DNA from: Glomus cerebriforme
Lineage: Eukaryota > Glomeromycota > Glomeromycetes > Glomerales > Glomeraceae
Direction of reading: 5' to 3'
Length of the DNA stretch: 51,404 nt
Assembly: GCA_003550305.1 (NCBI GenBank)
Contig: QKYT01000674.1
Location: forward strand, 3,401 to 54,804
Below are positions 12,147 to 46,682 of the stretch, in pieces. Made by a program: the position numbers and the translations under genes. Below the pieces are notes generated by a model, which worked only from the letters and a program-made list of their open reading frames with translations, ran no database searches and was not told the origin of the DNA. How positions within the stretch are numbered: the first letter of the stretch is position 1; each line of letters starts with the position of its first letter.

Positions 12147-13036
12147 CTAATTTAAAAGAGATTCAATAGAAATTCTATCATTTTGACTGTTGTGAGGGCG
12201 AGACTTATTAGAAGATGGAAGGAAAATCTCGGGGGATTCAGCTTTTCTTGAAATGCTTTTTTGTTTTTTTTTGTCTTGAATTCCAAAAGTTCCTTCAGAA
12301 TACCACTTATTAAAGTGATTATTCAAATCATCAACTAACCATTTCCAAGGAATTAAATCACTTGACAATCGATGGTTTCTAGGCCGTTTAGTAATAAGAT
12401 TTTTCGCATTATCCCCTAAAAAAATCAAGAAATATTAATCAAAAAAAACCCAAAAAAAAAACTAAGATAAATTTACCTACAATCCAGATCGAGATAATCT
12501 GTACAATTTTGCCCCGACGCTAAGATATGAATTCCAATTTCGAAACGACGATAGTCAAACCATTTTTTCTGTGATTTAATTGTTGATTTTTGATATTCAT
12601 GAATCCATTCAATGATAAATTGTTTCTTACAGTGATCGAGACATACTATTGAAAAAAAATGTTTTAATAAAAAAAATTTTACAAATTTTTTTATTAAAAG
12701 ATAAATTTACGTACATTTTGGATCAAGATAATTTCTCCAACTGTAATGAATTAATTTATAAAATAAAACAGAAAATCATTAATTTTAGAACGTAAATAAA
12801 ACAGCTTTTTTTTTATTGAATTAAAACTTACTAATTAGAAATTTGTCTTGGTGTGTATTTCGGCATTAATCTGCTAATTATTGCAAAACAATTATGTTGT
12901 TTGCCATATATTTTCATATAATACCTGATATTCTTATTATAAAAAGAAATATATATTAACAAACCAACTTTTTCTTAAAAAAAAAATCTTAATGACATAC
13001 ATTTTCATCGGATTGCGACATTTTACAATAGGACAT
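12147..13036 (-). CDS. Myb/SANT-like protein A, with an insertion in R3
   Basis: Exons (high to low): 13036-13001, 12932-12832, 12740-12715, 12645-12481, 12415-12147; 198 residues after splicing. R2-like repeat: NIRYYMKIYGKQHNCFAIIS then RLMPKYTPRQISN-YWRNYLDPK. The R3-like repeat starts CKKQFIIEWIHEYQKS but is interrupted by about 55 residues (WFDYRRFEIGIHILASGQNC, TDYLDLDWDNAKN) before LIPWKWLVDDLNNHFNKW. The third, DNA-reading helix of R3 (IKNFW in other copies) is replaced by GTFGIQDKKK. The C-terminus is RISIESLLN. It is an inverted duplicate of 31613-32530, with alignable introns. A DNA-binding role is inferred from the fold; without the R3 recognition helix, binding would rest on R2. 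It is apparently intact. Confidence 0.8.
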
Positions 13037-13135
13037 CTTGTATAATTCAAAGAGAAAATAATAATTTGTTTATTCGATAAAATTTGAGCGAATTAATTTG
13101 ACCTTTTTTTTAAAAAAAAAGCGAAAATGTAAAAG
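12147..13135 (-). repeat. Inverted segmental duplicate of 31495-32530
   Basis: The whole gene, its introns and about 100 bases of upstream sequence match 31495-32530 in inverse orientation. Similarity fades immediately after the stop codon. The pair lies about 18.5 kb apart. Confidence 0.8.
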
Positions 13136-13499
13136 GAAGAGAAAAGAGTCACTTGGGCACTTTTAAAATACCGGATAACCTCATTTTATTAATGATTAGT
13201 GCATCATGATTGTTTTCGGCTATTTATAAATAAGACAAAGAGTTTTGGCAATTAACTTTTCTTTTTAGATTTCCATAATTGGTTGAAGTGTAACGTGATA
13301 CGTTTTAGGCGTGCGGGTGTTACCGGAATAATATGTCCGGAATTCGTCCGGAATTAATGTTTAAATTTTGCCCAAATTTTTTGTGATCAAAATTTGTCTG
13401 CCCAAAATTTATTCGGAATTTTTTATGTGCAGGAATTTTGTCCGAAATCATATATTCCGTAATTTTTTACTTTTATTAGTCCATTAATTTTAATCAAAA
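13037..13499. other. AT-rich spacer with GGAATT/CCGGAA-rich words
   Basis: From 13310 to 13460 the words CCGGAAT, GTCCGGAATT and GTCCGAAAT recur and are separated by GCCCAAAATTT-like words. It looks like a degraded repeat or element end. No gene is visible. Confidence 0.4.
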
Positions 13500-14050
13500 C
13501 TAATTACAAATCGTCCATATCAAGGAAAAAAAAAATCAAAATCTAAGTTCAATAGTTAGCGATCGTCCCTAAACAAAAAGTAACAGAAATCTAAGTCCCA
13601 ATTGCTCCAGTAGCGTATAAAGAAATATCGTCTTCTCAATCGTCCTTAAGAAAAAAAAATCGTCCCAGCCTATCTAAAGAAAAAGGTTGAAATTTCAATC
13701 ACATCTTTCCGGATTGTACTTTAAAATTATAAATCAATTATTCCTAGCTGTACCCAAAGAAAAATAAATGTAATTTGAAAAATTCCAGTACTTAAATAAA
13801 TCAGAAATCAAAACATTTCCAATTATCCAATTATCCTTTATCCTTCAATTTAAGAAAAAAGCTTCAAATTGTCCCAGCATATCAAAGAAAAATTGAATAT
13901 CGGAATATTTAATTATTCCTAGCCACATCTAGAAAAAAAGTAAAGAAAAAAAAAGAATGGAAGCATTCGATCGTCCCAGATGTACCTAAAGAAAAAATAA
14001 ATTTGAAGTATTTAATTAATTTCAGCCATACCTAAATTAAATATGTATCC
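13500..14050. repeat. Degenerate tandem array with CGTCCCAG...CTAAAGAAAAA units
   Basis: Units of roughly 50-110 bases repeat the pattern (A/C)(A/G)TCGTCC(C)AG..TA.CTAAAGAAAAA (for example near 13555, 13640, 13660, 13730, 13870, 13915, 13975). On the minus strand each unit reads as a T-rich tract ending in TTTAG or CTAG followed by GT(A/G).CTGGGACGAT, so it resembles serial intron 3' ends followed by short exons. No long open frame is visible. Confidence 0.6.
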
Positions 14051-14914
14051 AATCATTGGTAGAACTGTAGGATTATAAAAATATACCCCAATAAAATTAA
14101 TTTTCATGAATTTGAAATTGAAAACAACTGTCGATCTTCGGAACGTTTCTTATTTTACGATCTCAACTATTATTAAAATTGAATTATATTAGCATGTATT
14201 TGAAGTTAAATAATCTAATTTCAGTAAGATAAAAAATTAAAGGTCAGAAATATATAATTTAATCTTACTTCATATCATTGGATAAACTTTATGCAAACTT
14301 TAGATATAATCGATTTGATCGGTAAGATATGACTTAGAGCAGCAATTCTTTATGGATCTGAATCTAAATAGCAGGTCTTTGACACCTATATTGATATGAA
14401 TATGAATATCAGTTCGTTTCTATTCAATAATGGGAAGAAGATGGAATGAGTAAATATAGGAGCAAATGATTTTAAACAGCATCATACAACGTATATACTT
14501 TTAATATACCATTCTCCCTTTATAATATTATTAATTTATGAATGATTTCTCATTGACAAGTGAGGAGTCCAACAGAAAGAACATCAAAAAAGAATGTTCA
14601 CGATATAATTAACACCGGACGAGAAGATATAGTTGTCGATTTTATTAGGTATCTGAAACATTTTGGAAATTTCATAGATATTAGGTATCCATTATAGAAA
14701 GAATTTCCATAAATGAATTTCATGCACATCCCATTTTGATCTGTGTAGAATGGAAGATACATCAACCAAAAGTTGGATATAACTAATGAAAAGAATGATG
14801 AAGAGAGTTAAAAGCACTGAAAATCTAAATAGAAGTCATAAGCAGAATAATAAATACATACTAAGCATTTTGAAGTATATTAATTTAATGTCCTATAGAA
14901 TGTTCGGAAATTTT
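14051..14914. other. AT-rich spacer
   Basis: No gene is supported. Short words GGTATC and ATTTCATAGATAT/GAATTTCATG recur near 14640-14730. Confidence 0.4.
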
Positions 14915-15112
14915 GTCTAGGTGTGTCCAGAAAATATCCCATACGTCCAGGAAATGTCCAGAAAATTGTAATATTCTGGATACTGAAACATTAGCTCGCC
15001 TAGACAGTTTCTGGATTATTTTAGAATATTGTAATATCTCAACGTCCGCAATATTACAATTTTCCGGACATTTTCCGGACAAACTGGACATTTTCCTTGA
15101 TAATTTACGGAC
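14915..15112. mobile_element. Foldback (long inverted repeat) element
   Basis: ATGTCCAGAAAATTGTAATATT (14954-14975, in two blocks) has its inverse with one mismatch at 15050-15071. Around this core, repeated TGTCCGGA/TGTCCAGA words extend the arms outward to about 70 bases. Because of the symmetry, both strands carry a similar open frame (KCPENCNI and ILQFSGHF appear in both). The frames are therefore a by-product of the palindrome, not genes. It is probably a MITE; the superfamily is unknown. Confidence 0.65.
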
Positions 15113-15223
15113 ATACTTTTTTTATGTCATTTCAAACTTATGTTAGAAACAATGCTTCAAATCGTCACAGATCAAATTACATATATTTTCTATAAAATAA
15201 ACTGAAAATTTTGTGAAAATTTT

Positions 15224-15466
15224 GTGCAAATAAAGAGAAAATTAGTATTATATTACAATATCATACATAATGACATATTAATTATCCAAGTAATTTACCC
15301 AAAGAAAACTTTTGATGTCGGAGATAAAACATGTGATATTGTGGCAGAAATAAAAAACAGATGTAGTTCAATTGAAAACATTGATCGAATCAAGCTAACA
15401 TATTTCTTCCGTGTAAAATGGTGGAATGCTGTAAATATACAGTACGAAAAAGATATAATTATATAA
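15224..15466 (+). CDS. Hypothetical ORF, 80 codons
   Basis: The frame includes VIYPKKTFDVGDKTCDIVAE, IKNRCSSIENIDRIKLTYFF, RVKWWNAVN, which is more protein-like than typical random frames in this AT-rich DNA. I see no recognised domain and no clear promoter. It may be an exon or relic of a larger gene. Confidence 0.3.
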   Translation: MQIKRKLVLYYNIIHNDILIIQVIYPKKTFDVGDKTCDIVAEIKNRCSSIENIDRIKLTYFFRVKWWNAVNIQYEKDIII

Positions 15467-16334
15467 AGTTAGCATGATAGCTTTACAAATATTTATTACA
15501 ATTTGATGAAATTTGATATCTAAATGTGTCCATACCTTGTCGAATAAGTTTAAATTTTACTGATCGAAGTGATGTATGGATATCCTGGTATCTATTGCGG
15601 AAACCTGGACAATCTCCATTAGATATTCAAAACATTTCAAAAAATGAAAATTTCATAAGTGTACATCACGGAAATTGGACAAGTTTCCATAGGATATTCT
15701 TAGTATAAAAAACTATGTTGAAACTTGAACTATATCTCCTCGATCAATGGATTGTGAGATATCTGTACAAAAAAAGTACATCTTTATACATGTAAAAAAA
15801 AGTCGAAGTATTATTATAAAAAAGTTGAATAAAAATTCATACAATTTAAATTTTAAATAATCCATACCATCAATCAACCTTCTAAAACATCAAAGTAATA
15901 AAAGTAATGATTGCATCATGAAATGCTGTACCTAAAAGAAGAAATTTTGTTATAAATAATAAAAATCAAGTAAATGGTACATAATAGAAATTGAAAACAA
16001 CTGAAAATATACTGTTGTAACTAAACCCAAGTGAGAAAGAGACTGACCAAGTATATGAATGTATGGATGGTTATTACAATTGACTTTTTAGTTAAGTTTC
16101 TTATAATTCATAATTAGTATATGAACAATAAAAAATACTTATAATATTTGTTCTTTTTTATTCACTTTCATTTGCTTTAAATTGACACGTTATTATGTTA
16201 TAATATAAAAATTTTTGTTTATTAATAAACATAAAATAATTAAATTATTACAAAATAAATAATATCAATATATACAAATTTCCAAGAAAAAAAAAGGTAA
16301 TATCTTAATAATGAATTAATTAATAATAAATTTA
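15467..16334. other. Spacer with an imperfect internal repeat
   Basis: GGAAACCTGGACAATCTCCA TTAGATATTC (about 15599-15630) resembles GGAAATTGGACAAGTTTCCA TAGGATATTC (about 15670-15700). The surrounding 60-codon frame looks like repeat sequence rather than a gene. The rest is AT-rich. Confidence 0.4.
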
Positions 16335-17102
16335 TTAAGGTTTCATTTTATATAGATCATTAAATTTAGGAACAAAATAAGGTTCTAAAGGTGATAATGT
16401 AGTAGGAAAGTTTCTCTGTTTATATGTCGCATCATCATGAAGAGGTTTAGGAAGTTGTAAATGAGGATCCTTTAAAATATATTTATCTTTTCTCAATTTT
16501 GCATACCAAAATTTTTTTAAATCATTTTCGGAGCGGACTTTATGAAAATGTTTTTTCAACTCGAGACGAATTTCTTTCCAATGAATAATATCATCGATAC
16601 CAGTTTGATTTTTATGAATCCATTTGGTTATGAATTCTTTTTCGTTTTCTTCTAATGGTAAATGACATACTATAATATGAAAGAAATAATAATATTTATG
16701 TTGAATAATTATTCTTTTTCTTTTAATAAAAATTTGGTTAAATAATAATTACACTTACATTTAGGATCAAGGAAGTTTCTCCACCTAAATTAATTTTTAA
16801 CGTGTATTTTTAAGAGTAAGGAAAAGTGAAAATTTTGATTATTAAAAATTACAACTTACCTATTAGACAGTTGTTTTGGCGAATACTTTGGCATCAAATT
16901 ACTAATTATTATAAAACGATTAGGATGATGTCCATACTCTTTCATGTATTTCTCGACGAGAGCATTGCTCTACAACAAAGAAAAAGAACATCTTTAATAG
17001 GAACGACGAGTCTCAATTTTCTTAAAAGTTCATCTAAAAAAAAAATAAAAATAGAATAGAATAGAATAGAATACATACTTCATCATCAAATAATTTTTTC
17101 AT
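16335..17102 (-). CDS. Myb/SANT-like protein B
   Basis: Exons (high to low): 17102-17079, 16969-16860, 16784-16759 (26 nt), 16669-16335; 164 residues. R2-like repeat: SNALVEKYMKEYGHHPNRFI then IISNLMPKYSPKQLSN-RWRNFLDPK. R3-like repeat: LEENEKEFITKWIHKNQ, IIHWKEIRLELKKHFHK, VRSENDLKKFWYAKLRKDK, so the third helix is present. The C-terminal tail is proline-rich (PHLQLPKPLHDD, LSPLEPYFVPKF) and lacks the SLLN ending. In plus-strand sequence, donors are GTATGT, GTAAGT and GTAAGT; acceptors are TTGTAG, AG and AG. The family fold suggests a sequence-specific DNA-binding nuclear protein. This is inference from the sequence; no target is suggested. Confidence 0.85.
17050..17074. repeat. Pentanucleotide microsatellite (AATAG)n
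   Basis: About four to five copies of ATAGA/GAATA lie in intron 1 of Myb-like gene B, immediately next to its donor site. Confidence 0.8.
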
Positions 17103-20100
17103 AATGTAAAAAAAAATTTATTTTTATTCTTCAAAAAGAGAAAAATTTTCATTTAAAACAAGAAGGAATGAAGGAAAAATAATTCGTTTACCGTTTTTCA
17201 AAAATTTCAAACAATTTACAACATTTCCCCTGTATAATTTTCTGGTTAGTCCCGTTCAATTCCGGATAGAGGTTTTTTTTTAATTTTTCATAAGGAAAAA
17301 GATAAGGAGAATAATGTTACCCAAGATAATATCTTATCATTTAATATTTTATACTTTATATATTATATTTTTTAAAAAAACAATAATAAAATTGATTTTC
17401 GGGAGATTTAACAAAAGTGGAAAGGATACGGTTAAAGAAATCTCATTGGAAGAAGTTTTATAAAAATGATGCAGTGAGATGAAAAAGAATGCAAATAAAA
17501 AAAAAAATGAACCAACTATTTTTATAAATTTATTATAACGAGCATTTACAAATAGTAGATAAATAAAAGGAAACTTTATGTAAAGAACAAGATTAAAATA
17601 TTTGGATGAAGTAATCTAACGTTTGAAATTACATAAAGCATTATTAATTAATAAGGTTGTTATAAATTGATCTAATTAAGTTTTAATCGATAATGCATTT
17701 ATTCAAATTATAATCTAACTTATATAAGTTAGACTTGTTGCATGTGAATTGACATAAATAAAAATTTTTTTTGGAAGTTTCAATGAGTTAAATTTGTGAG
17801 AATCTGCAGATTTTATTTTATTTTTTTTTTTTAAAAAAAATTCTCATAAAACTGATTCAGCCTTCTTAAACAATAACAATAACGATGAAATCGTATTTAT
17901 ACCTAAATTTTACTTGAAAAAAAAAATAGAAATGAAGGTGGAAAATCGGATCGGCAATGATTCAAAGTTTTATCCCTTTTTTTCGTGTCGCCTAAATATA
18001 AAGTTAATCATTTGGGCTTATACATGTTCTTTAACAATTCTAGAAACAATTCGAGTATTACAATTTTTTATCAGACGAAATCAATTGTTAAATATGTGGT
18101 TGTAATAATTTTAATAAGTCAGATGTAACCTTATTGTAAGTTCTTAGAAAATCTTGATGGATTACGCATTGCAATTCAAATTAGGATTTTAATCGACTGA
18201 TCGCATAAATATTTGGTTCATAAGTCACACGTAAATACATTTTCTAATAAAAAAAAATAGAAATTGGTCCTATAAAACTCCACAAACCACAAACTCGTTA
18301 ATGATATATTTGGTAATAAGTTTACACAACATTTCTTTTTAATAATGAGAATTTGTTAAAAAAATGTGGGACCCTTCTATTATTTCAAAGGACTGTGATG
18401 TTTAATATTAATTAATAAATACTTATATATCAAAATGTTGAATAAACTAAACAATAAACTAACTAAACATATTATTCTAAAATAAGAAACATTTACGGAA
18501 AAAATAAGGAGTGAGGGTTAGATTTTTCCGATTATTATTATTCTATACAATTATGACTTTTATTATGATTTGTGGCTGAGCTACAGTACATTTCTCGTTT
18601 ATAATTTTTATATAAATAATTTTTAATATATGATGTTATCAGTTATGAAATACGATGATTTACGCTATATATATCATCAAATGTTTGAGGCATTGTAACT
18701 AAAAATTTCTTTTTCTTTCACGGTTGTGAAGTGATCGACATGCAAATATGCCAAGATTTAATCATATTTAGGAATTTAGGATTCATATTAAGTTTTATAT
18801 TGGTATGACAAATGTTAATTTAAAGAAATTATTTGAACATCGTTTGCATTTGCCAAAATTTTTTTATTTTTAAAAAATCTTAATTCTGGCTAAAGAAATC
18901 GTTAAATGTTGTTAATACATGAACGTCAATAGATTTGATGTAATAAACCTATGGAAATTATATCACGTTCACATTGATTTAAACAGTGGTAATTATTTTC
19001 GTTTACTGCGGAAATCCAATTCGGACCAGCCTGAGATACTGTATATTCGAATTTGATCTGAGTGTAACTTGAATTTGGATCGACTCGATTGTTAAGATTT
19101 TGATTGGTCAGATTTTATAATAAAGAGGATACTTAAATTTTATATATTATATTTTTAGTTATTATTTATTAAAATTGTAGATATTATATATAAATTTTTT
19201 ACTTTAATTAAATGGGTGGTACTGTTAACTGTTATCATGAACCAATGTTTATATTGGATGGGACACAAAAAAAATAATTGGATGAGTAAAGACCACGTAG
19301 CGTCATAACAACCATTCCTGTTTAATAATTAGGGTTTTATTTACTAATAACGTAATCAAATTTAAAATAGAAATCAAATGTCGTTATCAGCAGATGGTTA
19401 GTCCGATTAATGTATTGTATAAATGTATAAAATTTTTTTTTAATATAATGAAAATAGATTGAATAATTGTCATATATCCCTTGTATTTTGTTTCATTTAA
19501 AATGAGGTTATATATTTTTTTAGGAGAAATAAACTCCTAATTTGTTTGACATTTGTTATAACAATATTTAACGTTTAGAAAGCAATTTCTTTGTTAAAAA
19601 TAAAATTAAATGATAATCAAAATTGTTATTTATTAATTTAACTCTAAATTTTGAATTCTTAAAATTTGATTCTTTCCTTAACGTATTTATTGAAACTTCT
19701 TATTTCTCATAATAATTTACAATATATTAATTTTTTTATGAATAATGTCAGGGGCTTTCTTTTCTTTTTTTTTTTTGTGAGACGTTATAACACCCTTGTT
19801 TTTGAGAAAAAGACGAAAAGATGACAAAGTTTTTTAACATAATTATATTTATAGAAAAAGAAATTATTGCTATTTTATTTATTTTCTAACATTTCTCAAA
19901 TCCCTTCAGCACCATTATTTGTAAAATCGTAAAAAAAAAAAAAAAGGATCCCTTGTCGATCGTAACACAGGGGATTTACTACCATTTATGTAAAGGATCT
20001 ATGCAAATGATTTCCTAGTTTATACATTAATTATTGAAGGATTTGGAACAATGAAAATTATTCAAAAGGAAACAATAAGAAAAATTATTATAACCCTTAT

Positions 20101-20319: not shown

Positions 20320-21204
20320 ATGCCGTTATTTGATGAAAACGTATGTAATAATTTCATCTTATATAATAATTCTTTTATCTTTTTATTAAAAAATATATAT
20401 ATATAATTTTTTTTTTCCTTTGTAGAGTAATAAAGTTATTATGCGTAGTATGAAAAAGTGGAAAAATCGTTATAATCGTTTTGTAAAAATTAGTAAATTA
20501 ATTCCAAATTATACACCAAAACAAATCGCTTCTCAGTAAGTTTATATGTTACATGTTTTTTTTTTAAAAAAAAAAAATTATTTTACATTTATTAAATTTA
20601 ATAAATTAAAAATTTTTAGTTGGAAGAATCATCTTGATCCAAATCGTAAGTATTCTTTTAATAATAATATATATTTATTTTTCTATTTTTTTTAAAAAAA
20701 AATTTTGTTACTTTTTCAGTATGTCGTGATTCCTTAAACGAGGATGAAAAAAAATTCGTTGCTGAATGGCTTCAAAAAAATCAAACTTCAAATGGTTTAA
20801 TTCCTTGGAAAAAAGTGGCCAATGATTTAAATAATCGATTTGGTAAGAAACATGCCGGAAATAAAATCAAGAATTATTGGAACGCGAGAAAAAAAAGTCA
20901 TTTAAGAAAGGCTAAAACTGAAGAATTAAAACAAAGATGTAGAATTGTTGAACAACAATATCGAAATATCAGATTTAAAGAACAAGATAAAGGAAAAGGA
21001 AAAATTAGATCTGAAGAAGAACAAGGGCAAGAAAAAGGAAAATCTATACCTGAAAAACAACAAGGAAAATCTATGACTGAAGGACAAGAACGTAAATTCT
21101 TTTTTAAATTTGTTTCTTCTGATCCTTTTATACTTCCTAAAAATCAAAATGAATATTCGAAAATTACTATTTCATCTCTTTTAAATTTTGATAATAATTT
21201 GTAA
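20320..21204 (+). CDS. Myb/SANT-like protein C
   Basis: Exons 20320-20340 (MPLFDEN), 20426-20535, 20620-20645 (26 nt), 20720-21204; 213 residues. R2-like repeat: SNKVIMRSMKKWKNRYNRFV then KISKLIPNYTPKQIAS-HWKNHLDPN. R3-like repeat: NEDEKKFVAEWLQKNQ, LIPWKKVANDLNNRFGKK, AGNKIKNYWNARKKSHLRK, the most canonical of the set. A charged K/E/Q-rich linker (about residues 125-185, with RSEEEQGQEKGKSIPEKQQG) precedes the C-terminal KITISSLLNFDNNL. Donors are GTATGT, GTAAGT and GTAAGT; acceptors end TTTGTAG, TTTTTAG and TTTTCAG. It appears intact. By fold, a nuclear DNA-binding protein. Confidence 0.88.
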
Positions 21205-24318: not shown

Positions 24319-25047
24319 ATGAAATACCTAAAACTCTCAAAAAGAAAAGTGCCAAAAAAAAGAACTTATAAAATCGATTCTGATGTACGTTAAATAATTT
24401 GTACTAATATATATATATATATATATTCAGATTATTAATAATAAAAAAAAATTTTTTCTTTTCAGAGTGAAAAAATCATTATTGATTATATGGATCGATG
24501 GGATAAACATGGTAGAGTAAATCGAAATCGTTTTGTGGAATTAAGTAAAATGGTACCTTATACCGCCAAGCAAATTTGTCAACAGTAAGCTTAATAAATA
24601 ATTTTGTTTCGTTCTTTTTTTTTTTAAAAAAAAACGAAATTAATTTTTATAACTATAAATTATTAGTTGGTGGAACAAGCTGGATCCAAGGCGTAAGTAA
24701 AATTGTATCTTTAATCCTTTTTTTTTTCTTAAAAAGAAGAAACAAAAATAAAAAAAGAATATCTTTTCATTTCATTTCATTCAGTTAATACACAAACACC
24801 TTTTACACGAGATGAAAAGGAATACATTTTCGAATGGGTCGATGTACACTTGGAAACAAGTAACAAAAAAATTTCCTGGAAGCTCTTGCAAATGGAAATG
24901 GAAGAAGAATTCGGAATGTTACGTTCTCGAAATGATATAAAAAATATTTGGTACGCCAAAAAAAGAAAATTATGTAGACAAGCGCAAAATATGTCCAAAC
25001 CCAGAATTGAAAGTTTTATCATGGAAACTTTTCCTCCCTTATCCTAA
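24319..25047 (+). CDS. Myb/SANT-like protein D
   Basis: Exons 24319-24384, 24466-24584, 24667-24692 (26 nt), 24785-25047; 157 residues. The N-terminal exon is longer and very basic (SKRKVPKKRTYKI), resembling a nuclear localisation signal. R2-like repeat: SEKIIIDYMDRWDKHGRVNR then NRFVELSKMVPYTAKQICQ-HWWNKLDPR; it has three extra residues relative to paralogs. R3-like repeat: TRDEKEYIFEWVDVHLE, ISWKLLQMEMEEEFGML, RSRNDIKNIWYAKKRKLCRQ. The tail is RIESFIMETFPPLS, only loosely like the SLLN ending of other copies. Donors are GTACGT, GTAAGC and GTAAGT; acceptors end TTTCAG, TATTAG and TTCAG. It appears intact. Confidence 0.87.
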
Positions 25048-27628: not shown

Positions 27629-28329
27629 ATGCGCTCCAAAGAAATATTATTTAGAGAAGAAGTATGTTATATAAAATAGTATTTTAAAACAACTAATGTT
27701 CTTTAAAATTAGTAATTTTTTTTTCTTGATATGATTTTCATGATTTTCATGATCTTATTTGATCTTCTTGTAGGATAATGTCCTTATCAGGAAATATATG
27801 AAAGAATATGGCCATCGTAAAAATCGTTTTGCATTGATTAGCAAATTATTAGATTCGAAATTTAATAATAAACAAATTTCTGAACAGTTAAGCATCTTAA
27901 CAATTTTAAAAATATTTCTCTTTTTCTTAAAATAAAATAAATAAAATTCTACTTTTTTAATTTAGTTGGAGAAATTCTCTTAATCCGGAGTGTAAATAAA
28001 GTTTTGTTCTAATACTTTCTTTCTTACTGTAAAAAAAATTACTAATATATTTTATAAATTTATTAGTATGCCATGAAGAATTTGGATTCTATGAAAAAAC
28101 AATTATTGATCTTCTGGTTCCAAAATATCAAAAATCAGATAAAATCCAGTGGAAATTTGTAATCGTTGAAATGAAAATTTATTTTGAAAAACTTTATAGC
28201 GAAAATAAAATCAAGAATTATTGGTATTCAAAGAATAGAAATAATAATACAAAAGATTCGAAATCGAAAACAAAAACTGTTAAAAGAAATGCACCATACT
28301 CAAAATCTCGAAAACAAAACGTTATTTGA
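27629..28329 (+). CDS. Myb/SANT-like protein E
   Basis: Exons 27629-27661, 27774-27886, 27966-27991 (26 nt), 28067-28329; 144 residues. R2-like repeat: DNVLIRKYMKEYGHRKNRFA then LISKLLDSKFNNKQISE-HWRNSLNPE; here the MP.YTP turn is altered to LDSKFNN. R3-like repeat: GFYEKTIIDLLVPKYQK, IQWKFVIVEMKIYFEKL, YSENKIKNYWYSKNRNN. The tail is basic and serine/lysine-rich (SKSKTKTVKRNAPYSKSRKQ) and ends NVI without an SLLN motif. The intron 2 donor is GTTAAG, weaker than the GTAAGT used by the paralogs; the others are GTATGT and GTAAAT. It appears intact. Confidence 0.85.
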
Positions 28330-29104: not shown

Positions 29105-29960
29105 CTATTATTATTATCCCACTAAAATTTTTAATTCTAATTAATTGCTTTCTTACTATAATTTCAAACATGGGACGTTATAAAAATCCATTATTCAATA
29201 AAGACGTATGTTTAATAAAAAAAATTAAATATTATCGTTGTTATATTATACCTTATTAAAAGAAATGTTTTTCTCGCTTTAGGATAATAAACATATCAGG
29301 CTACGAATGAACGAATGGGGACATCATCATGATCGTTTTACAAGGATTAGTAAAACAATGCAAAATCGTACGCCAAAACAAATTTCTGATTAGTAAGTTT
29401 TAATTTTTTTTCTATTTTTTTTTTTTAAAGACAAGTCTTAACTTTTTTTTAAAAAAAATTTTATTTAGCTGGAGAAATCATCTCAATCCAAAATGTATGT
29501 CACTTTATCCTTTAATATTATTATTTTTTACTTTTTCAATTTTTTAGGATATAAATATATATTTTTCATATATTCTATAGTGTGTCATGAACCTTTATCA
29601 CAAGATGATAAAGATTTTATTATCGAGCAGGCTCAAAAATATCCACTTATCATTCATTGGAAATTTATTATCAGCGGGTTGGAAAAGAAATCTGGTAGAC
29701 TTCGTTCCGAAAATTTAATAAAAAATTTTTGGTATTTGACTCCTTTAGCAAAAGAACGAAAAAAAGGAAATTTCAGAATTACCGTCTCGTCTCTTTTAAA
29801 TTGATCTCCTAAGCGTCTTTTTGGTTTAATAACTCTCAATTACCCTCAAAACACAAAAAAACATAATTAATTTAATTAGGGCTCTGGAAGTTTTCTATAT
29901 ATTTTCTCTTACCTTTATTTTTTGATATATTTTCTTTTCACCATAAAAGTATTTTAAATT
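29105..29960 (+). repeat. Segmental duplicate, inverted copy at 45835-46682
   Basis: About 850 bases match the reverse complement of 45835-46682, including all three introns (intron 3 looks identical), the coding exons and the 3' flank down to TTTTCACCATAAA. The copies lie about 16 kb apart. Confidence 0.85.
29170..29804 (+). CDS. Myb/SANT-like protein F
   Basis: Exons 29170-29205 (MGRYKNPLFNKD), 29283-29392, 29469-29494 (26 nt), 29581-29804; 131 residues. R2-like repeat: DNKHIRLRMNEWGHHHDRFT then RISKTMQNRTPKQISD-YWRNHLNPK, the best match to the classical Myb R2 (RTPKQ...W.N.L.P). R3-like repeat: SQDDKDFIIEQAQKYPL, IIHWKFIISGLEKKSGR, LRSENLIKNFWYLTPLAKER. The C-terminus is FRITVSSLLN. Donors are GTATGT, GTAAGT and GTATGT; acceptors are TTTAG, TTTAG and CTATAG. 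It is nearly identical to gene J at 45982-46615 and appears intact. Confidence 0.88.
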
Positions 29961-31494: not shown

Positions 31495-32530
31495 AATACA
31501 ATATCACAATCTATCATCTTTGCGATTAAATTTTTTTTTTTTAAAAAATCAAATTAATTCGCTCAAATTTATCGAATAAACAAATTATTATTTTCTCTTT
31601 AAATTATACAAGATGTCCTATTGTAAAATGTCGCAATCCGATGAAAATGTATGTCACTAAGATTTTTCTTTTTAAGAAAAAATTGGTTTGTTAATATATA
31701 TTTTTTTTATAAGGATATCAGGTATTATATGAAAAAATATGGCCAACGACATAATCGTTTTGCAATAATAAGCAGATTAATGCCGAAATACACACCAAGA
31801 CAAATTTATAATTAGTAAGTTTTAATTCAATAAAAAAAAGCTGTTTTATTTACGTTCTAAAATTAATGATTTTCTGTTTTTATTTTATAAATTAATTTAT
31901 TACAGTTGGAGAAATTATCTTGATCCGAAATGTACGTAAATTTATCTTTTAATAAAAAATTTTGTATAATTTTTTTATTAAAACATTTTTTTTCAATAGT
32001 ATGTCTCGATCACTGCGAGAAACAATTTATCATTGAATGGATTCATGAACATCAAAAATCAATAATTAAATCACAGAAAAAATGTTTTGACTATCATCGT
32101 TATCGTTTCGAAATTGAAATTTATATCTTAGCGTCGGGGCAAAATTGTACAGATTATCTCGATCTGGATTGTAGGTAAATTTATCTTATAATAGTTTTTT
32201 TTTGATTTTTTTTTGATTAATATTTCTTGATTTTTAGGGGATAATGCGAAAAATCATATTACTAAACGGCCTAGAAACCATCGATTGTCAAGTAATTTAA
32301 TTCCTTGGAAATGGTTAGTTGATGATTTGAATAATCACTTTAATAAGTGGCATTCTGGAAAAAAAGTCAGGAACTTTTTACAAAAAAAACAAAAAAGTAT
32401 TTCAAGAAAAGCTGAAAAGAAAATTAGAGCTGAATCCCCCGAGATTTTCCTTCCATCTTCTAATAAGTCTCGCCATCACAACAGTCAAAATTATTATTCA
32501 AGAATTTCTATTGAATCTCTTTTAAATTAG
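31495..32530 (+). repeat. Segmental duplicate, inverted copy at 12147-13135
   Basis: Exons, introns and upstream flank (CAAATTAATTCGCTCAAATT and onward) match the reverse complement of 12147-13135. Similarity ends at the stop codon. Confidence 0.8.
31613..32530 (+). CDS. Myb/SANT-like protein G, with an insertion in R3
   Basis: Exons 31613-31648 (MSYCKMSQSDEN), 31714-31814, 31906-31931 (26 nt), 32000-32170, 32238-32530; 208 residues. R2-like repeat: DIRYYMKKYGQRHNRFAIIS then RLMPKYTPRQIYN-YWRNYLDPK. R3-like repeat: CEKQFIIEWIHEHQKS, then an insertion of about 60 residues (FEIEIYILASGQNCTDYLDL, WDNAKNHITKRPRNHR), then LIPWKWLVDDLNNHFNKW and KVRNFLQKKQKS, where Leu stands for the usual Trp of the third helix. 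An extra intron (donor GTAGGT at 32171) lies inside the insertion. The C-terminus is RISIESLLN. If that extra intron is not spliced, the frame ends at 32178 after R2, giving a short form. It is a sister of gene A. Confidence 0.82.
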
Positions 32531-33199: not shown

Positions 33200-33378
33200 A
33201 TATTAAAAGATAAGATTTACTTACAATTTGGATAACTAAATTAATTTATTAAAAGAAAAAAAAAAATCAAATAAAGATTACTTATTGGATAAAGATTTGA
33301 GTTGGTGTATATTCGGGATTTTCTTGCTAATCATTACAAACTAATCACGATGTGGTACTTGGTAATATTATTGTCCTA
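33200..33378 (-). pseudogene. Myb/SANT-like copy H, inactivated fragment
   Basis: After a CTCGTAG acceptor the minus strand reads DNNITKY, then in a second frame HRD, TAG, FVMISKKIP, then in a third frame EYTPTQIFIQ, followed by a degenerate donor. These are the pieces of R2 (RF.MIS..IP.YTP.QI). Exon 3 is reduced to TTATCCAAATTG before GTAAGT, having lost about 15 bases of the WRNYLDP microexon. No R3 exon follows. It is clearly a dead family member. Confidence 0.7.
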
Positions 33379-34345: not shown

Positions 34346-35690
34346 GTTCATTAATCACTTCAATCAAAGTTGATTTTATTTCATCAATGATCGAGTCAGT
34401 ATCGAGTCTCTTGAATTACTTTTGAATATCAATGATTATGTTTTTATCTGTGAATTTTGGTAACAAGGAGAACAGATATGTTTGTATATCTAAAGATTTC
34501 AAATTTTAACTCATCATAGATTATTAAAAAATTTGCGTAATCATTTCATTTATCACTGATGGATTCAAGCCATTTCGCGTCCTTTGAGTAACCTATTTCA
34601 AAATTGATATAGCAAATGGATGAATGAAATGGTGAATATACTAGAGACCAGGTCTTTATGAAATAAGTAGTCAATGATTCTTTGGCAGAGGTTGAAATAT
34701 TTACAAACGGTTTCGTCGAGGGAATCTGCATGATCTCTCACTTCAGATATTCACTTGCTCCACCTTTGGTTCTGTTACACAAGCCATTTCGAAACAAGCT
34801 ACCCACACGCAAAGATAAGTATATGTTTGTATGTTACAATAAATATTTTTTATTTACCATCAGTTTTCATCTAGTGTAAACATTCCGCCAAAAAGAACTA
34901 AATCTCCTTCCCTAAACAATTCATTGTATTCATGACGAGCGTTTAAAGCTGAAATCATGGGTCTGGTTAGATATCTTTTCTCTATACGTTTGTAGTTTGA
35001 GCTGTTGATCTTAAGCAGATGACGAGAGCAATTACTTCTCCAGAGCCCGCTTCTCTGATAACTCGTCCAGTATTAACTCTAGTTACAAAACTGCTGATAG
35101 TTATTCATATGCTGAAACTGCTCGTCCCTATTTATTATTCACTTCAATCGAAGCTAATTTATTTAATCAACGATCAAATCTCTTGAATTACTTTTGAATA
35201 TCAATGATTATGTTTTCATCTGTTAAATCTTGGTGACAAGGAGAATGGGTGTATTGGTGTATTTGAGGATTTCAACTTTTAACTCGTCATAGAGTATTGT
35301 ATGATCTATTTCTCATTATAATTTTTTTGTTTTTTATTAGACATTTTAAAAATAAAAAAAAATTAGAGAAAAACCGCAAAAAGGTTCTTTTTAATCATTT
35401 TGGATGACTTTCTCTATTTATTTTTTATTCTAAATATCGTGTTTATTCATTAATCACTTTAATCAAAGCTGATTTTATTTTATTAATGATCAAGTCTCTT
35501 GAATTACTTTTGAATATTGATGATTATATTTCCATCCGTGAAGTTTTGGAATCGAGTGTTCATTTATGTATTTAAGGATTTCAAATTTTAACTCGTCATA
35601 GATCATCATTTTGATTTTATTAATTAATCATTTCAATTAAAGCTAATTTTTTTCATCAATGATCGAGTCTCTTGAATCACTTTATCTATT
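34346..35690 (-). pseudogene. Decayed gene region built of about 170-bp repeat units
   Basis: Units at about 34346-34530, 35136-35298, 35444-35608 and 35615-35690 share CAATCAAAG(C/T)TGATTT, ATGATCGAGTCTCTTGAATT, ACTTTTGAATAT, and GATTTCAAATTTTAACTCGTCATAGA. On the minus strand each reads (I/M)IYDELKFEILKY-(I/T)N..., NIIIDIQK, one stop, FKRLDTDSIIDEIKSTLIEV, INEQLKIKEKLI. The residues are typical of a folded or helical protein, but stops and frame changes interrupt every unit. Between units, 34546-34731 has a related open stretch (AKWLESISDK). I do not recognise the domain. The region is a degenerate repeat-containing gene or several gene relics. Confidence 0.45.
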
Positions 35691-36660: not shown

Positions 36661-36739
36661 GTACCATCACATATTTTATGTCCATCATAAAATCTCCTAT
36701 CTTTGATATGTTATAAGAATTAATGAAACTACATTCATT

Positions 36740-37842: not shown

Positions 37843-37997
37843 ATGCATAACAAAGAAGTATGTTTAATTAATTTTTTTAAAATATAAAATTTTTTATTAC
37901 TTTATTAAATATAAATACATATAATTTTGTAGAAAATAAATGAGAATGGACGTCGTAGTGAAGGGAAATCGAGACTTGCGACACAAAAGTGTAATCG
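37843..37997 (+). pseudogene. Possible Myb/SANT-like copy I, 5' remnant
   Basis: ATGCATAACAAAGAA is followed by a GTATGTTTAATTAA donor, closely like intron 1 of gene F, then TTTTGTAG. A 65-nt open stretch (37933-37997; KINENGRRSEGKSRL) follows, and then GTAAGTTTTATTAA plus a T/A tract as in intron 2 of other copies. Intron phases (0, then 2) equal those of the family, and the exon would be an in-frame 45-nt deletion of the 110-nt exon. No microexon or R3 exon follows. The assignment rests on gene architecture more than on protein similarity. Confidence 0.35.
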
Positions 37998-40221: not shown

Positions 40222-40600
40222 ATAGTAAGTGAGGTGGGTTTTGTATATTCTATTTTAACTTATAAACATAACTAACATTTCTTTCTTACTTTTTTTTTAG
40301 TGGTTTCTTAGACTCAAATTCTTGAAATGGTAAATAGAGGAAAAAGCTTTCATATTTCTTTAGAAACGTAATTTGCGTTCCTTTCTTGCTTTCTTTTTGA
40401 TGAAGACTTCTGGATCCTTTGAAGGTAAATGGAGGATAGAGTTTTTATGTTTCTTTGATTACAGGAATATAACTAACATTTCCTTTCTTACTTTTTAGCG
40501 ATGGCTTNACAGATTCTTGATTCTTGTAATTGTAAGTAAGAGAGGGTTTATATGTTTTTAACTTAAGAATATAAATAATGATCTTTTCGGNCATTTTATT
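40222..40600. repeat. About 3.5 exon/intron-like tandem units upstream of the transposase gene
   Basis: Units of about 95-110 bases start GTAAGTGAGG, GTAAATAGAGG, GTAAATGGAGG and GTAAGTAAGAG (about 40226, 40329, 40426, 40532). They run through TTTCTTTCTTACTTTTTTAG-like tracts into (C/T)GRTGGCTT..., GACTTCTGGATCCTTTGAAG. Each unit therefore has a splice-donor-like start and a polypyrimidine-AG end. No open frame spans the units. Confidence 0.6.
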
Positions 40601-41114
40601 TATTTATTTACTAATTACTTTCTTTTTATATTTATATAGAAATTGTTTATTTTGACAATTTGTGGGTTGGTTAAATCAATATAGAAAAACATTATGGTAC
40701 AAAATCATTTAATCAAAAGTTCTTTCTTTGGATGAGTTTCATTTAATTCTCAATATCCAAAAGTAATGTATTTATATAATTAGTTCAATTTAATAGATGT
40801 TTAATAGTAGTTTTCTGTTTAATTTAATTTATTTCTAAATTTGTATTGGAGAGTTNTTAATTTTAAAGTATAAATTATTTAATAAATTTATTACAAATAT
40901 TTTTCTTCGGAATATTATTATTTAAATAAATAATTTTTTATAATTAATTACATGTCAGATTAGATATTCAATCTCCTCGAATCTTGTCATACGTGAAGTT
41001 TTTGATCAGTTGATCATTGTAGTATGATCAATTATACCTATTTAACGTGTTCGATTTAATTTTATAAAAAAAAATTTCAAATTTTTTAGAATACTTTTAC
41101 CTAATATTTTAAAC

Positions 41115-43396
41115 ATGTCTAGTATGTCTAACATCACTTACCCTGCCTCAAATANTATTACACTTAATCAAAATAACACTCGTTACACTTATACAATTAT
41201 TAAGGAAGGATATTATCCTTCAAGTGATATAATTCATTATACTTCTGCTCGTTCTTGTATTCAGTTCAAGATTCCAGATAATTATTTAGTTCAGACAAAC
41301 TGGGGTAGAGGAAAATCTAAGCATGTAATACAATGTGAAGTTAGTTATGTAGAAAAAGTACCAGTTTTCAAAATTTTATTTGGAGAAAATTTTCAAGCAT
41401 GTGTAAAATCTACACAATCAGCATCAAATGCAGCAAATTCTTATTTGAAAGTAAGTGAAATACTTTATATCCGATATAAATTTTTTATTTAACATAATTA
41501 ACATTTAATTTTAAATAGATAAAAAATCCTAATACTCAAGCTAAACTTTCAGGAATCCATGTATTTGGTCTTAATATTCAAGAATTAGAAAGAGAGCGTG
41601 AAAGAAAACATCGATCTCATCTTNTCAAACCTTTTAATAAGCTAAGCAACTCCATGAAATCTAAACGAGCACATGTATTTANTAAACACTTGGAAGTTAA
41701 TTTTAAAAATACAGTAACTAAATGTTTTCATCCTGATGATCATCCAATGCTTCAAGAAATTANCTTTACCATTCAAGATAAAAGTTTTCAAGTTAATTTT
41801 GGCATTCAAGATAAAGAAAAAGAAAATCAACGAAATGAGGCATTTACTAAAGTGATTGATCAAGGACCTATTGCACGAGATTCATACCGAAGTTTAACAG
41901 CACTTCAGTCTGATTTANCANGTGAAAATGCTATTTTTAAAACCAAAAAAAGAATTAATGAAATAATGAATCAAGCCATTCCTATATTAATTTTAAATAT
42001 AATGGACTTGCAATCTTCCATTCCAACTAATGAAAATTCAGATAGTAATGATCCANAAATTATAGAGGAAGTTTTAAAATATGTTGGAAAGGCTGGATAT
42101 CGCAAAATTAAAGACATTTTACTTTTTATACTTCCAGATCTTGTAGAACAATGTGTTCTTAATCCTGATGTTCCAATTATTCATTTGCGCATATCTGGGG
42201 ATGGGAGAAATGTTGGCAGAAAAGTGAAACATGTAATGGTTACATGTACCCTTTTAGATAATATTTCAAACCTTCAAAATGCCGATTACCATTATACTAT
42301 TATTTTATATCCAGGCGTTGAAGAATATGAAATGCTACAAAAAGTAATGGCACCGATGATTAGTGAATTAAATGATTTGGTAGTAAATGGATTAAGAGAT
42401 TCAAATGGAAAAATATGGACTATTAAACCATATTTTAGTAGTGATTGGAAATTTTTGGCAATTATTCTTGGTTTTAATGCTCCTAATGCAAATTACTTTT
42501 GTCCTTGGTGCTTATGTAATAAAAAAGATATTGGAAATAAACATAAGATTTGTATAATTGAAAAAAATATGGAGCAAATTGAACCAGCTTTTTTCAATAG
42601 TCATTCATTAACAAAACCACCACCAGGTCATATTAAACCTCCTCTCCTTCGTATGATTCCTTTGGATCATTATGTTCCAGATGAGTTACATATAATGCTA
42701 AGAATATGGGATCGGTTATGGCTTTTAGTTCTTCAAGAACTCAAAATACAAAACAACTTTAATAATTCAATTAGAGCAATTATTATTGCTGAAATGCAAA
42801 GAATTTCTGTTACATTTCAATTCTGGCAAGATCAAGGGACACAAAACTGGGCTTTTACATCATTAATGGGAGGTGATAAGGAAATTGTTTTAAAAAGCTT
42901 TAATTTTGGAGTAATTTTTAATGAAGAACGTGCATTTTTAATTAATCATTTATGGAGAGACTTTTATCAACTTTACAAAAATATGAAGAGTCAAGAAACT
43001 AATCCAATTCATTTTGCAAACCAAGCAAAACAATGGTTAGATTTATTTCTTACACCATCTCAAGGTGAACCAAATACTGTCACTTTTAAAATGGGTCTTT
43101 ACCGTCCAAAAGATGTAACACCATATATTCATATTTTGGTTCATCATTTACCTGAATTTATGGAGAAGCATCAGAAGTTTGGATTAAAAGCTTTTTCTTG
43201 TGCTCCAGTAGAAAAGAAAAACCATGATCAAGTTTCTGCTTTTTTTCGAAAAACAATGAAAGATGGTGGAAAAGGAACAGAAAGAAAATCTGCTATTTTT
43301 GAGATTTTACATTATGAGAACCGATCAATGTATTTTACTCAAAAAGGTACTGCAGATAAACATCCCAAACCACAACATATTCATATTAAAGATTAA
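41115..43396 (+). CDS. DDE-type transposase, two exons, 737 residues
   Basis: Exon 1 is 41115-41450 and exon 2 is 41519-43396 (donor GTAAGT, acceptor AAATAG, phase 0). The N-terminal part (CIQFKIPDNYLVQTNWGRGK, ACVKSTQSASNAANSYLK, AKLSGIHVFGL) looks like a substrate-recognition module seen in related metazoan and fungal element proteins. The catalytic core has LRISGDGRNVGRKVKHVMVT (Asp about 340), KPYFSSDWKFLAIILGFNAP (Asp about 421) with NYFCPWCLCNKKD (zinc-knuckle), PLDHYVPDELHIMLRIWDRL, and HHLPEFMEKHQKFGLKAF, EKKNHDQVSAFFRKTMKDGG near the end. The acidic motifs and Cys pair fit an RNase H-fold cut-and-paste transposase; assignment of the third acidic residue is not possible by eye. The frame is open throughout, so it may be active. 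Several codons contain N. Confidence 0.75.
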
Positions 43397-43568
43397 AAAT
43401 TGGTTAATTTTTTTACTCTTTTTTTATTTTATTCATGGAATAATACATTTGATAATTAGATCTATATACATACATTCAAAATTTTAGTATAATAAAATTG
43501 NTTTGAAAAAATAAATCTATTTAACGAATATTCTATTTTTAATAAGTATATACAAGTTTCTATGATAA

Positions 43569-44336
43569 CTAGATTTGTTGAGTACAAAAATTTAAATATA
43601 TATATCCTGCTAAAGTTTTATTTTTTTTGGCATCTTCTTTACTTTTCTTACATTTCCATTCAACTGTTAATTTAGGTAATTTAAATTTTTTTAATCTATT
43701 TTTTGGAATTCGCTTTCCATTTTGATTAAAAATATTTTCTTGGTTGGCCTCTACTTCAGCTTGCGCATCAAATAACATGACAAATGTTTGTTGGTCATTA
43801 TCAAAAAATTTACGTCCCCAATTTGGATTATCTGATAAAGAAAAATCTGTTAAAATACAAGAAGATTTAATTTAAATGTCTGAAAATTATATAACTAATT
43901 TCTTACCAAATAAATTAGCTACCTGTGTATATGCATCAGAACCTTGAAAAAAACACTTATAACTACCTGATCGAAAGTTATAATGATGAATATAACCTTC
44001 AAAGACTCCAAAAAACAAACTTTCCAGACAAGGAAAAGAAATAGTTTGTCTACCCGACTGAGAAAAATGGTCCTTTAGTTTGCTTTGAATAACATGAACG
44101 AGTTGTCCTTTGAACTCTGTTATTGCTTCTGAGGGTAGTACATATAATCCTTCACGTCGTACATTATATTTTTGTATAATATTTTTATGACGAGTTAATC
44201 CAGATTGACTCTTGTATGAAGCTTTACAAATAACACATTCATAGTGTTGTAAAGNGGAAGGTGGTGAAAGAGGCGGAGTGAGAATAGAAACGGTGTGATG
44301 TGAGTTTTGAGAAAAAAAATTGACGTTACTGCACAT
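43569..44336 (-). CDS. C2H2 zinc-finger accessory gene of the transposon
   Basis: Exon 1 is 44336-43907 and exon 2 is 43846-43569 (donor GTAAGA, acceptor AACAG; TTTG joins ATTTTTC to give LFDFSLSDN). About 235 residues. After a P/S-rich N-terminus (ILTPPLSPP) comes one C2H2 finger: YECVICKASYKSQSGLTRHK with a His four residues before N-rich sequence, though the second His is less clear (RHKNIIQKYN). Then follow EAITEFKGQLVHVIQSKLKD, SYKCFFQGSDAYTQVANLF, NPNWGRKFFDNDQQTFVMLF and a basic tail KRIPKNRLKKFKLPKLTVEW. It is convergent with the transposase, 170 bases apart. An ATG slightly upstream is not available, so the start at 44336 is chosen. It probably assists transposition or element regulation; this is inference. 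Confidence 0.65.
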
Positions 44337-44435
44337 ACTTTGCAAAATAATATTGTAATAGTAATATATTTAATATAAAAAAACTTCTGGGAATTCCAAT
44401 ATTTTTTACTTGTCAAAAGCACTTGGTTGAATATT

Positions 44436-44501
44436 GGAACGATTGGTTAGACATTTGAAGGATTGGTTTGACTGTTTACGCGTTAGAACGATTGGTTAGA
44501 T
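44436..44501. repeat. Three GAACGATTGGTTAGAC-like direct repeats
   Basis: GGAACGATTGGTTAGAC (44436-44452), GAAGGATTGGTTTGAC (44457-44472) and AGAACGATTGGTTAGAT (44485-44501). They lie between the zinc-finger gene and the right end of the transposon, so they may be subterminal transposase-binding sites. Confidence 0.6.
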
Positions 44502-44682
44502 TAGTGATAGATTATAGTGAAAAATTTTTTCGTTGATTATTTTTAGGGTAATTTTGCATCAGCTGATAAATCAGGTGGCAAATCTAGCAAATCACAGCTG
44601 CAGGAATCATCTGATCAGTGACCTTAAAAAAGGCCCAATTAAGATGATACGCGCATATGTGATAATTGGTTCTTGAAATTCA

Positions 44683-45834
44683 GGAGTTGCATCTTTGGTC
44701 TTGCATTTTCTTTGTTGTTGATCCTGTTATTAATTTTAACTACCTTGATTTAGTTGAGAAATATTTTTTAAGGGAATATTTTTGAAAATTTTTTTCATAA
44801 TATTGGTCAAGTCGTTTATTTACGAAACTGTTGGTAATTTTACGATATTGTTTATAAGAGTCTGTAAGTAAAGGTATATTTTACAACTATTTTAAGAAAT
44901 ATTAATAATAATACAGTATGAAAAAAAAAAAAATCCTCAAAATCTCATATTTTCTATATGATACCGAAATTCCTTTGACGGACTCAAACAATTTTCAAGT
45001 AAACAAAATATAATAGCTGATCGCCAAACACTTTGACCACAAAGCACTGCTCAGTGAGTGCTCACTGTCAAAAGAAAGGTAGGTTTATATTTTCACAACG
45101 ACGAGTTTTTGCGGTTTTATCCCATGGATCTGCTCAACTTGTACTGAATAAGCGTGGGTGAACGCTCTAATAATACTCAAGTAATTTATGAGCTTATTGA
45201 TCATAAGCTTAACCTATTTTATTTATTAGATGGTAGAACGGAAGCGAACGAAGTGAATTTAACTGAAGTAACATCGAAAAAGAAAAACTACCCGACAAGG
45301 TAAGTTTATACTAGATATATCAATAATTTATTTATTTATTTTTTATAGTACATTTACTAAAAGAAGTTATTTAATTTTAGCAAACAAATTAAATCTCTTT
45401 GAAAGCAAATTTGATGAAAACGAAAATCACAAGAAAATAATTTTATGAAAGCTAGTGATGATAAAAACGGAAATTATCATTTTAAAAAAACAAAACATAT
45501 ACAGTATCTCATTTCTATGCAACCGGAACAATTTACGTCTTTATTACAAAATGGAGTTTTTAGCAAATGTTAACGTTAAAATAAATCTTACTATATTAAA
45601 TTTGTATATGTATTTAGCGTATTATTATATCGATAAATTAGTTATGAGAAGACGCTGTATAGCTAATAAAAAAATCGGTCTATGAAAAATCCACATAATC
45701 CTATGATCCTAATAAGAACGATAACATAATATACTGTAATACTATTAATAATATACAGTAATAATGTATAAAAGATTTAAGGAATACTGCATAAATATAG
45801 CGTGAAATTTTCATCTAGTCAATAAAATTTTTAA
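44683..45834. other. Spacer with possible spliced small exons near 45.05-45.4 kb
   Basis: TTATTAG, then an open 69-nt stretch at 45231-45299 (GRTEANEVNLTEVTSKKKNY, PT), then GTAAGT; after TTTTAG at about 45379, SKQIKSL and TGA follow. An upstream piece ending TVKRK with GTAGGT at about 45080 may be part of it. This would be a tiny gene with good splice signals but no recognised product. The rest is AT-rich. Confidence 0.3.
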
Positions 45835-46682
45835 GAATACTTTATGGTGAAAAAGAACATATATCAAAAAATAAGGTAAGAGAAAATATATAGAAAAACT
45901 TCCGGAGTCAATTAAATTAATATTGCTTTTTATATTTTGAGGGTAATTGAGAGTTATTAAGCCAAAAAGACGCTTAGGAGATCAATTTAAAAGAGATGAG
46001 ACGGTAATTCTGAAATTTCCTTTTTTTCGTTCTTTTGCTAAAGGAGTCAAATACCAAAAATTTTTTATTGTATGTTCGAAACGAAGTCTACCAGATTTCT
46101 TTTCCAACCCGCTGATAATAGATTTCCAATGAATGATAAGTGGATATTTTTGAGCCTGCTCGATAATAAAATCTTTATCATCTTGTGATAAAGGTTCATG
46201 ACACACTATAGAATATATGAAAAATATATATTTATATCCTAAAAAATTGAAAAAGTAAAAAATAATAATATTAAAGGATAAAGTGACATACATTTTGGAT
46301 TGAGATGATTTCTCCAGCTAAATAAAATTTTTTTTAAAAAAAAGTTAAGACTTGTCTTTAAAAAAAAAAATAGAAAAAAAATTAAAACTTACTAATCAGA
46401 AATTTGTTTTGGCGTACGATTTTGCATTGTTTTACTAATCCTTGTAAAACGATCATGATGATGTCCCCATTCCTTCATTCGTAGCCTGATATGTTTATTA
46501 TCCTAAAGTGAGAAAAACATTTCTTTTAATAAGGTATAATATAACAACGATAATATTTAATTTTTTTTATTAAATATACGTCTTTATTGAATAATGGATT
46601 TTTATAACGTCCCATGTTTGAAATTTATAGTAAGATAATTAAAAATTTTTAGAATTTAGCGGGATTAATAATAAGAGCAAAG
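45835..46682 (-). repeat. Segmental duplicate, inverted copy of 29105-29960
   Basis: This is the counterpart of the repeat at 29105-29960: introns, exons and both flanks match in opposite orientation. The left limit is about TTTATGGTGAAAAAGAAC (45843) and the right limit about GCGGGATTAATAATAA (46660). Confidence 0.85.
45982..46615 (-). CDS. Myb/SANT-like protein J, near-identical to F
   Basis: Exons (high to low): 46615-46580, 46502-46393, 46317-46292 (26 nt), 46205-45982; 131 residues, the same exon lengths as gene F. R2-like repeat: DNKHIRLRMKEWGHHHDRFT then RISKTMQNRTPKQISD-YWRNHLNPK. R3-like repeat: SQDDKDFIIEQAQKYPL, IIHWKSIISGLEKKSGR, LRFEHTIKNFWYLTPLAKER. The C-terminus is RITVSSLLN. 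Differences from F are few and partly cluster in the R3 region before the recognition helix (FII to SII, RSENL to RFEHT). The gene appears intact and sits apart from the main cluster. Confidence 0.87.

Follow-up and report, generated by a model that had tools for sequence, protein, structure and literature searches.

What kind of proteins are encoded by a run of eight small, related genes on one contig of the fungus Glomus cerebriforme, how did the genes accumulate there, and what might they do? The genes lie in a stretch of 51,404 nucleotides (contig QKYT01000674.1 of assembly GCA_003550305.1, positions 3,401 to 54,804 of the forward strand; hereafter the window, in whose numbering coordinates are given). 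An earlier account made from the letters alone, the sequence-only reading, had described them as a local expansion of Myb/SANT-like genes. We find that they probably belong to a family of small nuclear regulators of the Glomeraceae, which would combine an R2R3-like Myb head with a short docking tail and which has spread mainly by local duplication. The gene models, the homology and predicted fold, the retention of contact residues, the clustering, the constraint seen in 8 of 16 gene pairs and the recurring tail motifs support this directly; from them we infer DNA binding, a target core, co-repressor docking and repression.

Gene structure and Myb-like heads

All eight genes were found where the sequence-only reading had placed them, each with an open spliced frame of 131–213 residues. 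Six encode R2R3-like proteins with both repeats clearly recognizable: gene B (16335–17102, minus strand, 164 residues; exons 17079–17102, 16860–16969, 16759–16784 and 16335–16669), which ends in KMKP (tail class M3, below); gene C (20320–21204, plus strand, 213 residues; exons 20320–20340, 20426–20535, 20620–20645 and 20720–21204), with the C-terminal motif KITISSLLN; gene D (24319–25047, plus strand, 157 residues; exons 24319–24384, 24466–24584, 24667–24692 and 24785–25047), with a 4-residue insertion in R2; gene E (27629–28329, plus strand, 144 residues; exons 27629–27661, 27774–27886, 27966–27991 and 28067–28329), which has a close copy, L035, on contig C787; and genes F (29170–29804, plus strand; exons 29170–29205, 29283–29392, 29469–29494 and 29581–29804) and J (45982–46615, minus strand; exons 46580–46615, 46393–46502, 46292–46317 and 45982–46205), inverted near-copies of 131 residues each that share the C-terminal motif RITVSSLLN. 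The claim that every gene has this architecture held less well for the inverted pair A and G, in which R3 is interrupted. The splice models of gene A (12147–13036, minus strand, 198 residues; exons 13001–13036, 12832–12932, 12715–12740, 12481–12645 and 12147–12415) and of its near-copy or sister G (31613–32530, plus strand, 208 residues; exons 31613–31648, 31714–31814, 31906–31931, 32000–32170 and 32238–32530) have five exons and end in RISIESLLN, but the splicing of R3 in both is uncertain because our aligner prefers another splice across the R3 insert in A. The insert in G (32100–32228, plus strand) resembles that gene's own exon 3 with the beginning of intron 3 and is probably an internal partial duplication, on a borderline score of 39.5 that none of 500 controls reached (best control, 38.5).

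The introns of all eight genes are of the GT/AG type and 65–112 bases long, exon 3 is 26 nucleotides in every case, and introns 1–3 lie in phases 0, 2 and 1. The common micro-exon and intron phases thus point to one ancestral gene structure. BLASTP matched the proteins in all 28 pairs, the weakest being A–D at about 1e-6 (eight-sequence database). The products of B, C and D are letter-for-letter identical to the public Glomus/Rhizophagus cerebriforme proteins C1645_835496, C1645_743846 and C1645_835498, respectively. A, E, F, G and J were absent from the public proteins returned by our protein searches, in which E and J served as queries and A and G did not, so that this is a weak test for A and G.

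The proposed Myb fold is borne out by two lines of evidence, a family profile and a structure model. The profile aligns over both repeats, R2 and R3, of c-Myb (PDB 1mse; E 4.7e-12), and its top matches are the Myb domains of c-Myb, v-Myb, B-Myb and Trichomonas (E 7.7e-17 to 8.8e-9); Cef1/Cdc5 ranks far lower (best E 7.9e-5). The predicted structure of the gene B product has two confident three-helix units (helices 7–20, 26–33 and 39–50, then 61–74, 84–95 and 101–119), whose best structural matches are Myb domains. Among the seven window proteins scanned with Pfam (all except F), five (B, C, E, J and G) pass at least one curated cut-off of PF00249 or PF13921, and A and D fall below.

The heads share with c-Myb and animal and plant R2R3-MYB proteins (PDB 1mse, 1h88 and 6kks) two adjacent three-helix repeats in the same order, but R3 is longer before the recognition helix, seen as an alignment gap, the whole proteins have only 131–213 residues, and they occur in lineage-specific clusters and carry short recurring tail motifs. 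Classical R2R3-MYB proteins have three regularly spaced tryptophans in R2. Here the third is retained in 47 of 50 family loci, the second is phenylalanine in 28 and tyrosine in 14 of 43, and the first position is tryptophan in none of 14 alignment rows; because this pattern departs from the three-tryptophan rule, we class the proteins by sequence as R2R3-like. The R2R3 domains of Trichomonas vaginalis Myb2 and Myb3 (PDB 3osf and 3zqc) are among the best structural matches as well, although they come from an unrelated lineage and are only 21–28% identical. Cdc5/Cef1 also has two Myb repeats, with a fold score as high as that of c-Myb, but these are large splicing proteins with a much weaker sequence match.

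Lys128, Asn136, Lys182 and Asn183 of c-Myb, base-contact residues of its recognition helices, align in the profile alignment with positions 40, 48, 105 and 106 of the gene B product. Across family loci the R3 pair is largely kept: the Lys182 equivalent is lysine in 41 and arginine in 5 of 47, and the Asn183 equivalent is asparagine in 43 of 47. The R2 pair is mostly kept too, with lysine in 34 and arginine in 10 of 48 at Lys128 and asparagine in 38 of 50 at Asn136. Ranked by conservation among 108 columns, the R3 lysine and asparagine stand 15th and 14th, and the R2 positions Lys128 and Asn136 25th and 23rd. Other features count against a simple copy of c-Myb: the Asn186 equivalent is tyrosine in 27 of 45 loci, the equivalents of Glu132 (rank 81) and Ser187 (rank 91) are variable, and two of the three R2 tryptophans are replaced. 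Because of the Myb homology and the retained contact residues, DNA binding by the family heads is strongly suggested. Upstream of 41 family loci, sites of c-Myb type were not enriched; autoregulation through them thus finds no support here, and we dropped the idea.

A clustered family with old and young members

The sequence-only reading had taken the expansion to be local, which underestimates its scale. With a spliced aligner whose profile was derived from the eight proteins of the window, we found at least 52 loci with scores of 57 or more, the window genes included, on 23 contigs. The scores of the window genes themselves (223–315) are circular, so that the independent test lies in the other loci; 240 Markov-resampled controls reached at most 38.6. 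The line at 57 was set after the scores were known: L018 (41) was dropped, and L052 on contig C197 gave nothing of 40 or above. The loci were reached by searching the whole assembly with the protein sequences of B, C, J, D and one member from contig C378, after which the surrounding stretches were aligned. These searches depend on shared 5-residue words, all family counts are lower bounds, and gene models beyond the window are automatic output of the aligner. The 26-nucleotide exon is present in 39 of the 52 loci, exon 2 runs on into exon 3 in the three loci of contig C742, and 46 of the 47 loci scoring 100 or more contain no stop.

The loci are strongly clustered. The biggest groups lie on contigs C378 (nine loci), C814, which is the window contig (eight), C865 (five) and C787 (five), and for 36 of the 52 loci another member lies within 20 kb. 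Neighbour pairs number 25, where random placement would give an expected 0.49 (at most 4 in 2000 trials), a contrast that may be favoured by the fuller coverage of cluster-bearing contigs. A separate group of Myb-like exons lies on contig C890 (182015–239544), with 13 PF00249 matches in 182015–228308 and 8 PF13921 matches out to 239544, partly overlapping. Five candidate loci there (L029–L033) were tried as members; two scored 45 and 46, three gave nothing of 40 or above, and all were dropped. By its sequence we assign the C890 group to a different expanded Myb-like family.

Relatives are found in other Glomeraceae. At E ≤ 0.001, three protein searches yielded 82 proteins, 68 of them named by organism (66 Rhizophagus, including Glomus cerebriforme, and 2 Funneliformis) and 14 unnamed; public labels are hypothetical, HTH (helix-turn-helix) myb-type or Myb-like domain-containing. 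Neighbouring locus tags (RclHR1_05000005, 06 and 08; OCT59_003509 and 3510) suggest that the genes are clustered in R. clarus and R. irregularis as well. Two of the relatives, P0027 (R. clarus) and P0028 (R. irregularis), have two R2R3-like heads per chain and by eye resemble each other over their length, which suggests fusion of neighbouring genes.

In a midpoint-rooted tree with 13 of the 56 outside proteins returned, which left 16 of 53 inner branches open, gene C joins two R. irregularis proteins and one from R. clarus (support 100/99). Gene D falls in a 14-row clade (99/99) that also holds four other R. cerebriforme loci together with proteins from R. irregularis, R. clarus and R. diaphanus. 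No close relatives of A/G, E, F/J or B are among the 13. Judged by these placements, the window genes are several old lineages plus young near-copies, and not the product of one recent tandem burst.

How the young copies arose can be read from the inverted pairs F/J and A/G. Since similarity covers the gene and short flanks and the introns are retained, the sequences identify these pairs as gene-sized duplications at the DNA level, or as copies homogenised by gene conversion. Together with the clustering and the broken copies (L044, L049, L050 and L054), the inverted pairs support the birth and death by local duplication that had been proposed. Of the two relics named in that proposal, the one at 33200–33378 (minus strand) stands weakly as what is probably a decayed exon 2 whose frame is broken: its score of 30.4 was reached by none of 200 controls (best, 29.0), and a stop and a frame break are seen by eye. 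The other (37843–37997) scored 17.8, which 156 of 200 controls reached, and was rejected.

Selection was estimated as omega, the ratio of nonsynonymous to synonymous substitution rates (dN/dS), by pairwise codon models on short alignments; this and the tail analysis below were confined to loci scoring at least 100. Among the 16 closest pairs, 8 have an omega significantly below 1 (0.15–0.38, uncorrected), and for the other 8 it does not differ from 1, including F/J (1.37), A/G (0.83, a value that depends on the uncertain splice models), E/L035 (1.27) and J/L038 (0.58). Omega is significantly above 1 in none of the 16.

Tail motifs, proposed mechanism and rival explanations

The tails had been described as strongly divergent. 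This is only partly right: of 59 non-redundant tails (from 98 tails of 118 models and proteins), 27 carry one of four short recurring motifs, mostly within 25 residues of the C-terminal end, and the other 32 have none of the four. M1 ([KR]I[ST][IV]xxLLN-like) occurs in 5 of the 59 tails (shuffle mean 0.002, maximum 1) and is common to window genes A, G, C, F and J. M2 (SRLDILC-like) occurs in 9 (mean 0.004, maximum 1), M3 (MxP at the end) in 8 (mean 0.115, maximum 3), and M4 (LPTLQP-like) in 8, three of which also have M3 (mean 0.038, maximum 1). The patterns were chosen after looking at the tails; in an earlier test, two other M1 patterns matched 4 and 5 of 54 tails, against shuffle means of 0.0 and 0.04, and the four-class patterns were written later.

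M1 resembles KIPIKDLLN in the Tup1-recruiting region (residues 1–70) of yeast alpha2, whose first residues lie within the part that Table 2 of PMC10163088 lists as recruiting the co-repressor. The motif is N-terminal in alpha2, a homeodomain protein, whereas it is C-terminal here, and this short sequence likeness is a lead, not a result. A Tup_N match above the cut-off, over positions 1–33 of 77, suggests that a Tup1-type co-repressor is encoded in this genome.

We propose that each product is a small nuclear protein whose head of about 110 residues would set its two repeats on a short DNA site, with both recognition helices placed as in c-Myb; the retained contact residues suggest that a short AAC-type core would be read. 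Part of the tail would serve as a docking peptide that brings in a cofactor, in several recurring classes. Those with M1 (A, G, C, F and J) may bring in a Tup1-type co-repressor, and repression by this route is a tentative proposal that we hold to be possible but doubtful. The family would grow as gene-sized units are duplicated locally, often in inverted orientation, and lose copies by decay, leaving clusters of old lineages plus young near-copies in each genome. A bolder and unlikely version is a Glomeraceae-specific system with a constant DNA-reading head and exchangeable C-terminal docking peptides (Tup1-type M1, 'SRLDILC' M2 and 'MNPxF' M3), in which cluster turnover continually rewires cofactor choice at shared target sites; if true, this would give these fungi strain-specific expression programmes. 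A role in recognition or development is speculation.

Four other explanations were weighed. The family could be mostly decaying, with the window genes as neutral remnants of an older family that once functioned: omega is near 1 for F/J, A/G and E/L035, broken copies exist, and five of the eight genes are missing from the public proteins returned. Yet every one of the eight frames is open and its introns are GT/AG, C and D fall with proteins from other species in the tree, and F compared with the C787 copy L038 gives an omega of 0.38 (twice the log-likelihood difference, 2dlnL, 4.2, uncorrected), so that we regard general decay as improbable. The genes could instead be cargo or remnants of mobile elements, spread by transposition and not by the evolution of regulators. 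The similarity of F/J and A/G extends little past the genes, a possible mobile-element open reading frame (41654–43396, by eye, no Pfam match) lies between G and J, and expanded R. irregularis families are placed near Mutator-like elements in PMC8647823. The sequence-only reading had named a transposon in hundreds of dispersed copies as what would refute it. What we found are at least 52 loci with 36 within 20 kb of another and not high-copy dispersed units; moreover, copies retain introns, lineages are common to several species, and the seven window proteins scanned contain no transposase domain. Transposition is thus very unlikely.

That the heads bind protein or chromatin in SANT-like fashion, or RNA, as Cdc5/Cef1 would suggest, and not specific DNA, seems decidedly unlikely in view of the profile ranking, with c-Myb, v-Myb, B-Myb and Trichomonas first and Cef1/Cdc5 far below, and of the R3 Lys–Asn pair among the top 15 of 108 columns. 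Export as effectors acting in plant nuclei would fit small size and fast turnover in a symbiotic fungus, a general expectation only, but the proteins have little sequence ahead of the Myb head (MPLFDEN, for instance) and no signal peptide is apparent on visual inspection (no predictor was used), and we consider this scarcely credible.

A regulator family of this kind matters since very few transcription factors of arbuscular mycorrhizal (AM) fungi have a known function; PMC4771724 gives GintSTE as the only validated one as of 2016. The family adds at least 52 loci in one genome, with relatives in other Glomeraceae, and adds a DNA-binding group to the expanded groups that PMC8647823 lists for R. 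irregularis (kinases, BTB, Sel1, Kelch and PIWI). A parallel is the HMG-box expansion of Rhizophagus irregularis and Gigaspora (PMC4771724), also a DNA-binding family expanded in AM fungi, but with an HMG box in place of Myb. The word 'Myb' occurs in neither main text, and we found no earlier description among the literature matches listed, in line with the sequence-only reading, although the R. cerebriforme genome paper may hold a table entry. The fold is already known; the lineage-specific expansion, micro-exon structure and tail classes appear to be new. The small head can be made and tested directly, and the tail classes are a testable prediction on cofactor choice.

Other features of the window

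An open reading frame at 1541–2467 (plus strand) encodes a TLDc domain with a sub-threshold BACK match, and another at 43887–44345 (minus strand) has a sub-threshold C2H2 zinc-finger match. A protein kinase spans two overlapping frames at 10162–10999 (plus strand), which may reflect an intron, a break in the frame or an error in the assembly. Long open reading frames at 41115–43396 (plus strand), which are interspersed with unknown bases and lack a Pfam match, look by eye like mobile-element proteins. The search for repeats in the window covered those of at least 60 nucleotides. It shows inverted arms of about 110 nucleotides, 83–89% complementary and about 6 kb apart (3704–3927 and 9636–9858), the second inside a 125-residue open reading frame without a Pfam match, and an 86-nucleotide unit in three direct copies, 70–76% alike (34401–35574).

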